This document shows, in pieces, positions 11,870 to 13,002 of a DNA stretch of 64,000 nucleotides. The first letter of the stretch is position 1, and each line of letters begins with the position of its first letter. The DNA lies in the NCBI RefSeq assembly GCF_023702125.1, contig NZ_CP098415.1:2356001-2420000 (forward strand). Reading direction: 5' to 3'. This DNA comes from Halorubrum hochsteinianum. GTDB lineage: Archaea > Halobacteriota > Halobacteria > Halobacteriales > Haloferacaceae. The notes beneath the pieces were generated by a model. It was not told the DNA's origin, did no database searches, and saw nothing but the letters and a program-made list of their open reading frames with translations. A program made the translations under genes and the position numbers.

Positions 11870-11963
11870 GCTCTCGGCCGTCGGCTCCCGCGACCGGCAG
11901 TTTCGGCCCGTAATCGCTTCCGCGGCCGGCCGCTTTTAAGCCGCCGCGCCACGACGTACTGGT

Positions 11964-12245
11964 ATGGAACTCGAACTGCGGTTCTTCGCGACGTTTCGCG
12001 AGGCCGCCGGCGGGAAGACGGTGAACGCGGAGTTCGCCGACGGCTCCACGGTCGGCGACGTGCTCCGGGAGCTGGAGTCGGAGTACGACGGCATGGCGGG
12101 TCGCCTGATCGTCGACGGCGACCTCGCGCCGCAGATCAACGTCCTGAAGAACGGCCGCGAGGTCCTCCACCTCGACGGACTCGACACGCCGATGGCGGAC
12201 GGCGACCGGCTCTCGGTCTTCCCGCCGGTCGCGGGGGGCGCATGA
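11964..12245 (+). CDS. samp3: Ubiquitin-like small archaeal modifier / MoaD-family protein (SAMP3-like)
   Basis: A 93-residue beta-grasp protein: MELELRFFATFREAAGGKTV at the start, a VLRELESEYDGMAGRL helix and a C-terminal SVFPPVAGGA. MoaD and SAMP proteins end in Gly-Gly, which is adenylated by an E1-like enzyme for sulfur transfer or isopeptide linkage to target lysines. The overall sequence is closest, from memory, to the SAMP3 subgroup. Here one Ala codon (GCA) follows the Gly-Gly, because the stop overlaps the next start (GCATGA). Either the Ala is trimmed or this copy cannot be activated. It is translationally coupled to the next gene. Confidence 0.82.
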   Translation: MELELRFFATFREAAGGKTVNAEFADGSTVGDVLRELESEYDGMAGRLIVDGDLAPQINVLKNGREVLHLDGLDTPMADGDRLSVFPPVAGGA

Positions 12246-12595
12246 CGGACGACGCGTCCGCGTCGGTCGAGGGGGCCGACGACGCGAGCACGCCGGGCCT
12301 CCCCCCGGCCGAGGAGGGCTGGGAGCGTCGGACGGTGGCGTATCGCGGTATCTCGCGGCGGCTCGCGGCCCACTACCTCAGGAACCTCGGCGGCGAGCTG
12401 GCGGGGACCGACGACCCAGCGGAGGCGACCCGCGTGGACGGCGACGGGTGGCGGGTGACTCTCAGCGCCGAGAAGGTGACCGCCGCGGCCGCGATCGAGA
12501 TCACGGAGGTGACCGCCGAGTTCGCCGGCGACCCAGACGCGCTCGCCGACCTCCTCCCGAAGTACCGGCAGAAGGCGATGCGCGCCGGCGGGTGA
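12242..12595 (+). CDS. Conserved haloarchaeal protein coupled to the SAMP3-like gene (117 aa)
   Basis: ATGA overlap with the modifier gene. The first ~30 residues are acidic and disordered. The core (~32-115) has a predicted beta-alpha-beta arrangement with GWRVTLSAEKVTAAAAIEITEVTAEFAG. It resembles the C-terminal domain fused to some archaeal MoaD proteins, but I am not certain. Fixed coupling suggests it assists or is a partner of the modifier. The stop overlaps the next start (TGATG). Confidence 0.65.
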   Translation: MTDDASASVEGADDASTPGLPPAEEGWERRTVAYRGISRRLAAHYLRNLGGELAGTDDPAEATRVDGDGWRVTLSAEKVTAAAAIEITEVTAEFAGDPDALADLLPKYRQKAMRAGG

Positions 12596-13002
12596 TGTCC
12601 GACGACGACGCGACCGCCGGCTCGGATCCCGACTCGTACCCGATCGAGGGGACCGCCCTGGTGAAAACCGCCGCGCTCGCGAGCGTGCCGGCCGCCGCCG
12701 TCCCGGAACTGCTCGCGCGGGTTCAGGCCGATCTCGGTCCCCGGATCGACGAGTACCGCCGGCGCTACGAGCGGATCGCGGCCGAGCCCGAGCGGGAGAC
12801 GTTCTTGGTCGAGCCCGACCACTGGGAGGCGGTCGGCGAACGGCTCGGACTCACCGAGCGCGAGCGCGACGCCGTGGCCCGGGCCCACGAGGCGGCCGTC
12901 GAGCGGATCGGCTCCGGGAACGACCGACGAGAGGAGTTCGACACCGCCTTGGAGATCCGGTCCGGCGTCGTGATCGGAGTCGATTCCGACGGCGACGAGT
13001 GA
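12595..13002 (+). CDS. Hypothetical haloarchaeal protein, third gene of SAMP3-like cluster (135 aa)
   Basis: Not recognised. The protein is acidic and helical: a hydrophobic alanine-rich stretch (ALVKTAALASVPAAAVPELL) precedes charged helices (RIDEYRRRYERIAAEPERETFLVE). There is no membrane segment or metal motif. It starts at the ATG overlapping the previous stop, so the three genes 11964-13002 form one translationally coupled unit. Confidence 0.65.
   Translation: MSDDDATAGSDPDSYPIEGTALVKTAALASVPAAAVPELLARVQADLGPRIDEYRRRYERIAAEPERETFLVEPDHWEAVGERLGLTERERDAVARAHEAAVERIGSGNDRREEFDTALEIRSGVVIGVDSDGDE

Follow-up and report, generated by a model that had tools for sequence, protein, structure and literature searches.

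The SAMP3 Gene and Its Surroundings

The window, a stretch of 64,000 nucleotides from Halorubrum hochsteinianum, carries on its plus strand at positions 11964–12245 the gene of a SAMP3 precursor of 93 amino acids, whose expected mature form comprises residues 1–92. About 25 bases 5' of the ATG lies a TTTTAA box (11934–11939, plus strand), which was located by eye only and fits a leaderless archaeal transcript. The C-terminus translates as LSVFPPVAGGA*; the invariant motif FPPVAGG near its end is encoded at positions 12219–12239, with Gly-Gly at 12234–12239, and is followed on the same strand by the GCA codon of an extra Ala, the P1' residue (12240–12242), and by the TGA stop codon (12243–12245). 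The initial annotation had described a diglycine buried by one residue, and the translation FPPVAGG-A agrees with it; the ATGA overlap that it noted between this gene and the next is real as well, covering positions 12242–12245 (plus strand), where the SAMP3 stop meets the start of a partner gene with its ATG at 12242–12244. The partner gene (12242–12595, plus strand) encodes 117 amino acids with a DUF1952-like domain from about residue 26 and ends with -KAMRAGG. A further ORF of 134 amino acids (12595–12999), for which no family was found above the cut-off, starts at the partner stop (TGATG) and may belong to the same operon.

Judged by homology, the window protein is a true SAMP/MoaD protein and a SAMP3 ortholog, nearer to SAMP3 than to SAMP1. 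It matched Pfam ThiS at 2.1e-17 and the NCBIfam SAMP1 family at 8.5e-31, and it is 100% identical to H. tebenquichense SAMP3. The structure of Haloferax volcanii SAMP3 (PDB 2m19) aligned to residues 1–92 with E = 1.5e-37, as compared to approximately 1e-11 for SAMP1 structures, upholding the earlier assignment as a SAMP3-like modifier. The title of the 2m19 record merely reads "molybdopterin converting factor subunit 1"; the entry was taken as SAMP3 because of its sequence, its length and the published position of Ala90 ahead of the SAMP3 diglycine (PMC7305310). In the window protein, Gly-Gly is not the encoded C-terminus, and because one Ala comes after it, the protein is referred to as a SAMP3 precursor. 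A single UbaA-like E1 is present in the genome.

The same genome encodes a SAMP1-like paralog (L002, C1:1696924-1697196) which is also tailed, reading VSGG-SVGR. Among 29 SAMP1-like paralogs of the genus that were read (L205-L234), about two thirds carry tails of 3–8 residues, with AVGR, SVGR, LADR and ALGRESDR among the sequences found after VSGG, and 10 stop at GG. The third ThiS-family match of the genome (L278, C1:2173951-2174223) is divergent and ends with FMFCC, not with Gly-Gly.

C-Terminal Tails across Halobacteria

FPPVAGG is encoded in 304 of the 391 genomes of the class sample. It is directly followed by TRR in 152 genomes; one of these (G277) reads TGG and was counted as tailed. 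All Halorubrum genomes of the sample (46/46) encode the motif, and in none of them (0/46) does the stop codon come directly after GG. Outside the genus, 103 putative tails were read, revealing 102 true SAMP C-termini and one chance match (L194), so that the tailed genomes of the class sample total 148. The FPPVAGG matches dropped as chance were L122, L123, L126, L130, L131, L147, L148, L156, L163 and L194, together with the second match in G383 (L255).

Tails or fused proteins follow the FPPVAGG end in about half of the relatives that encode it. Short tails in Halorubrum differ by species and read A, S, T, V, RT, CEA, CET, GEP, GGT, HD, DD or DE; those of other genera include HV, RR, CR, TATEDVV, VNGCER, CVDHRR and many more. 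In several species SAMP3 has no stop codon there, and its reading frame continues through the downstream protein, as seen in 35 unique sequences. Across Halobacteria, FPPVAGG proteins therefore occur with a plain GG end, a short tail or a fusion, and these states have switched repeatedly: a FastTree tree of SAMP3 and its partner, built from short proteins and leaving the direction of change unresolved, gave at least 12 changes between the fused and the separate state and 14 between tail and no tail.

The initial annotation had attributed the Ala to the ATGA overlap. This was refuted by Halobium salinum (L073), in which GGC GGA TGA gives the ATGA overlap and the protein nevertheless ends directly in GG; since GGA-TGA overlaps equally well with a Gly-Gly terminus, the overlap is not the source of the Ala. 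Many tails also occur without any gene overlap. In a rough look at ATGA overlaps within the window, where most such ORFs are not known genes, the last residue was usually Arg and not Ala. Likewise, GGA as a conserved unit, for which an alignment of orthologs had been proposed, was not found; FPPVAGG is invariant and the residue behind it varies, up to a full in-frame fusion. An error in sequencing or annotation is ruled out as the general cause by the recurrence of tails in 148 genomes, that is, in 46/46 Halorubrum and 102 genomes of other genera. The overlap itself is real, which is what speaks for the extra Ala as a functionally meaningless accident of gene overlap or sequencing; however, the comparative data already contradict this explanation with the plain GG end of L073 under the same overlap, the tails without overlap, the fusions and the recurrence across the class sample, and we give it hardly any credence.

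Preference for Small Residues Behind Gly-Gly

In 47 unique Halorubrum-type sequences, picked by the pattern PP[VI][AST]GG, FPPVAGG showed no variation, and the next residue had an entropy of 2.4 bits (maximum along the protein, 2.8 bits). The invariance is upheld despite the selection by pattern, because every one of the 46 Halorubrum genomes in the class sample encodes the motif, as compared to SAMP3 homology matches in 52 of 52 genomes of the genus. Residues behind a conserved Gly-Gly, as in a JAMM-processed Ubl precursor, are thus present.

Residue bias was determined from 176 unique tails, taken from proteins of the SAMP3 and the SAMP1 type. A small residue (A, S, T, C, G or V) stood first in 85% of them, versus 49% further along the tails; D and E together made up 2.8% versus 21.8%, and Pro was absent from the first position versus 4.7% later in the tails. 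For tails of at least two residues, the first residue was small in 84%, D or E in 3.7% and never Pro. In the fused proteins alone, the residue after GG was small in 89%, and among 30 representatives with less than 80% C-terminal identity, 27 had a small residue and none had D, E or P at this position.

This bias is, as expected, the pattern that a protease with a need for a small P1' residue would leave. It agrees with the measured P1' preference of the archaeal JAMM CsRpn11, where the Cys79Gly variant was cut faster and Cys79Glu was not cut (Fuchs et al., PMC6043591). Mutated stop codons could account for part of the excess of Ser, Cys, Gly and Arg. One-base changes of a stop codon yield S, C, G and R, and also Q, E, K, L, Y and W; because the latter six are almost absent after GG, and A and T are not directly reachable in this way, stop-codon mutation can account for no more than a part of the pattern.

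JAMM1 as the Candidate Maturation Protease

The initial annotation was right in stating that, with Gly-Gly buried, a protease would have to expose the diglycine, and the search for a JAMM-type protease that it proposed was successful. The source genome encodes two JAMM proteins, of which L113 (HSHPAGPTEPSETD) belongs to the JAMM1 type and has its HSH-x7-SxxD motif intact, making it the cognate candidate. In published work, HvJAMM1 cuts a SAMP1-MoaE fusion exactly after Gly and is required in vivo for that fusion to work (PMC4443979), and CsJAMM cuts natural SAMP precursors of C. subterraneum (PMC6043591). In the accessible literature, no report was found of HvJAMM1 acting on a single C-terminal Ala.

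JAMM1 orthologs were detected in 295 of the 391 class-sample genomes. Among the genomes with an FPPVAGG protein, leaving out the chance match L194, the JAMM1-positive ones comprised 121 without and 148 with a tail, and the JAMM1-negative ones 30 without and none with a tail (Fisher p ~1e-7 or less, uncorrected for kinship). Five independent contrasts between JAMM1 and tail were obtained in all, two of them on well-supported branches; a sign test on these two, both of which lie in the expected direction, was underpowered and not significant. Eleven of the 16 SAMPs read from JAMM1-negative genomes have no partner gene nearby, and some of them may be paralogs. All 30 JAMM1-negative genomes keep a weaker, JAMM2-like match, and none of them is tailed. 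The responsible JAMM, if any, would be JAMM1, given that a JAMM2-like protein is retained where JAMM1 is missing; that any JAMM would suffice for tails is unsupported, given these 30 tail-free genomes. JAMM1 is apparently missing in genus codes g24, g29, g36, g50 and g56 and in one g53 genome; these retain a JAMM2-like protein, and their SAMPs end exactly at Gly-Gly.

Removal of the tail by another protease, be it a general one or, for the shortest tails, a carboxypeptidase, would suit the many tails of only one to three residues, and the association of JAMM1 with tails is limited by kinship. Fusions of 86–131 residues, however, call for endoproteolytic cleavage behind GG, as carried out by JAMM1 orthologs in the published experiments (PMC4443979), and the complete absence of tails from JAMM1-negative genomes (0/30) is against it too, so that we consider a different enzyme unlikely.

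The DUF1952-like Partner and Its Fusion to SAMP3

Members of the partner domain were gathered by a profile search. The residues R35, G36, Y45, L46, G50, W70, K111, A112, R114, G116 and G117 are invariant, and 161 of 164 unique sequences end with -[MIV]R[AS]GG; among the three exceptions, two run off the end of the retrieved sequence and the third continues past this point. The AlphaFold model of the partner shows a confident beta-alpha-beta-beta-beta-alpha domain (pLDDT 89), for which Foldseek gave as best match 1v8c, the structure of a Thermus MoaD-related protein (probability 1.00, E = 1.9e-3). The domain is therefore predicted to have the fold of the 1v8c C-terminal domain, and a second ubiquitin fold was rejected. 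The partner sequence profile aligned to 1v8c residues 90–167, weakly (E = 0.19), and the FPPVAGG of 1v8c itself, residues 81–87, lies directly ahead of this region. Pfam PF09189 (DUF1952) was not matched by the window partner and was matched by 2 of 45 relatives (best, 2.7e-5). -KAMRAGG ends the partner in nearly all relatives, without a tail behind the diglycine, although the fold is not ubiquitin-like.

The partner is fused to SAMP3 in other species. Taken together with the 1v8c match, these fusions make SAMP3 and the DUF1952-like protein a pair that occurs, in archaea as well as in a bacterium, as neighbours, overlapping genes and fusions. In the model of a haloarchaeal fusion, residues 88–112 (VAGG and linker) form a disordered stretch that separates two folded domains.

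An intact fusion is seen in the Thermus crystal structure 1v8c, and MoaD-like domains may serve as scaffolds. Tailed SAMP3 might accordingly stay unprocessed and, incapable of conjugation or sulfur carriage, have a binding role only, perhaps by forming a two-domain protein together with its partner. Such a role does not explain the constraint on the residue behind Gly-Gly, which an uncut tail would hardly impose, and Gly-Gly is invariant in all tailed and fused forms. We regard it as highly improbable, and the inactive protein that the initial annotation had offered as an alternative is disfavoured by the same two features.

Discussion

In our view, the window SAMP3 is likely not inactive but made as a precursor that JAMM1 matures. 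Observed are its sequence, the conservation pattern, the bias behind Gly-Gly and the presence of both JAMM1 and UbaA. Translation would yield SAMP3-GG-Ala, from which a JAMM1 metalloprotease of the HvJAMM1 type would take off the Ala by cutting after Gly92, and the exposed diglycine would be activated by the E1 UbaA for protein conjugation. JAMM1 would likewise release SAMP3 where the tail is longer and where, in related species, a natural SAMP3-DUF1952 fusion is made. With whatever stands behind GG open to removal by JAMM1, the position of the stop codon would be free to drift; tails could thus arise and change, and an overlapping downstream gene could become fused, as with ubiquitin precursors. 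For Halorubrum, both the cleavage by JAMM1 and the conjugation of the mature form are what we infer from sequence comparison.

A more speculative possibility, to which we give a low probability, is that SAMP3 and the DUF1952-like protein act as a single functional unit, encoded in the form of a pair that can be processed, where -RAGG of the partner would be a second active diglycine, serving as a conjugation or sulfur-carrier tail on a non-ubiquitin fold, and the JAMM1 cut of a fusion would release two diglycine-ended proteins.

The type of system, ubiquitin-like precursors and their processing by JAMM proteases, is already known. In the literature searched, which covered few subscription papers, no description of haloarchaeal SAMP3 precursors or SAMP3-DUF1952 fusions was found, and no paper found there named HVO_2178, DUF1952 or TTHA0341. 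SAMP3 of the model haloarchaeon is translated with its mature Gly-Gly end already. If much of the class makes a SAMP3 precursor, JAMM1 would serve in maturation in addition to deconjugation, like eukaryotic DUBs, and the naturally fused species would offer ready-made in vivo substrates of JAMM1. The series within one genus from GG-stop via short tail and overlap to full fusion shows a possible origin of ubiquitin-like precursor fusions and ties SAMP3 to a conserved, uncharacterised partner.

Haloferax volcanii SAMP3 (HVO_2177; 2m19) resembles the window protein over residues 1–92, with the same FPPVAGG, and Haloferax loci have the same partner gene downstream; Haloferax SAMP3, however, stops directly at Gly-Gly, whereas the Halorubrum protein of the window adds one residue and others add a tail or a fused protein. 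The Thermus protein TTHA0341 (PDB 1v8c) likewise has an FPPVAGG domain followed by a domain matching the haloarchaeal partner, but it is bacterial and the sequence similarity of its second domain to that partner is weak; on its processing, no information was found in the literature searched.

In eukaryotes, the precursors of ubiquitin, SUMO and NEDD8 and the fusions of ubiquitin to ribosomal proteins carry variable residues behind an invariant Gly-Gly and are matured by proteases (PMC11354881). The haloarchaeal proteins are alike in variable tails, fusions and proposed maturation, with the difference that the eukaryotic enzymes are mostly cysteine proteases and the haloarchaeal candidate is a JAMM metalloprotease. 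The SAMP/ubiquitin precursors of Caldiarchaeum, with CsJAMM and CsRpn11, share the residues after Gly-Gly with the haloarchaeal proteins and resemble them in the maturation by a JAMM with a P1' preference (PMC6043591), which is proposed for the latter; they belong to another lineage, cleavage was measured there and is deduced here, and a DUF1952 partner was not described there. In MoaD-MoaE fusions, both the natural DR2607 of Deinococcus with DRJAMM (PMC8832034) and the engineered SAMP1-MoaE (PMC4443979), a MoaD-like domain is joined via Gly-Gly and a JAMM frees both parts, whereas the fused partner of the haloarchaeal proteins is DUF1952-like and not MoaE.
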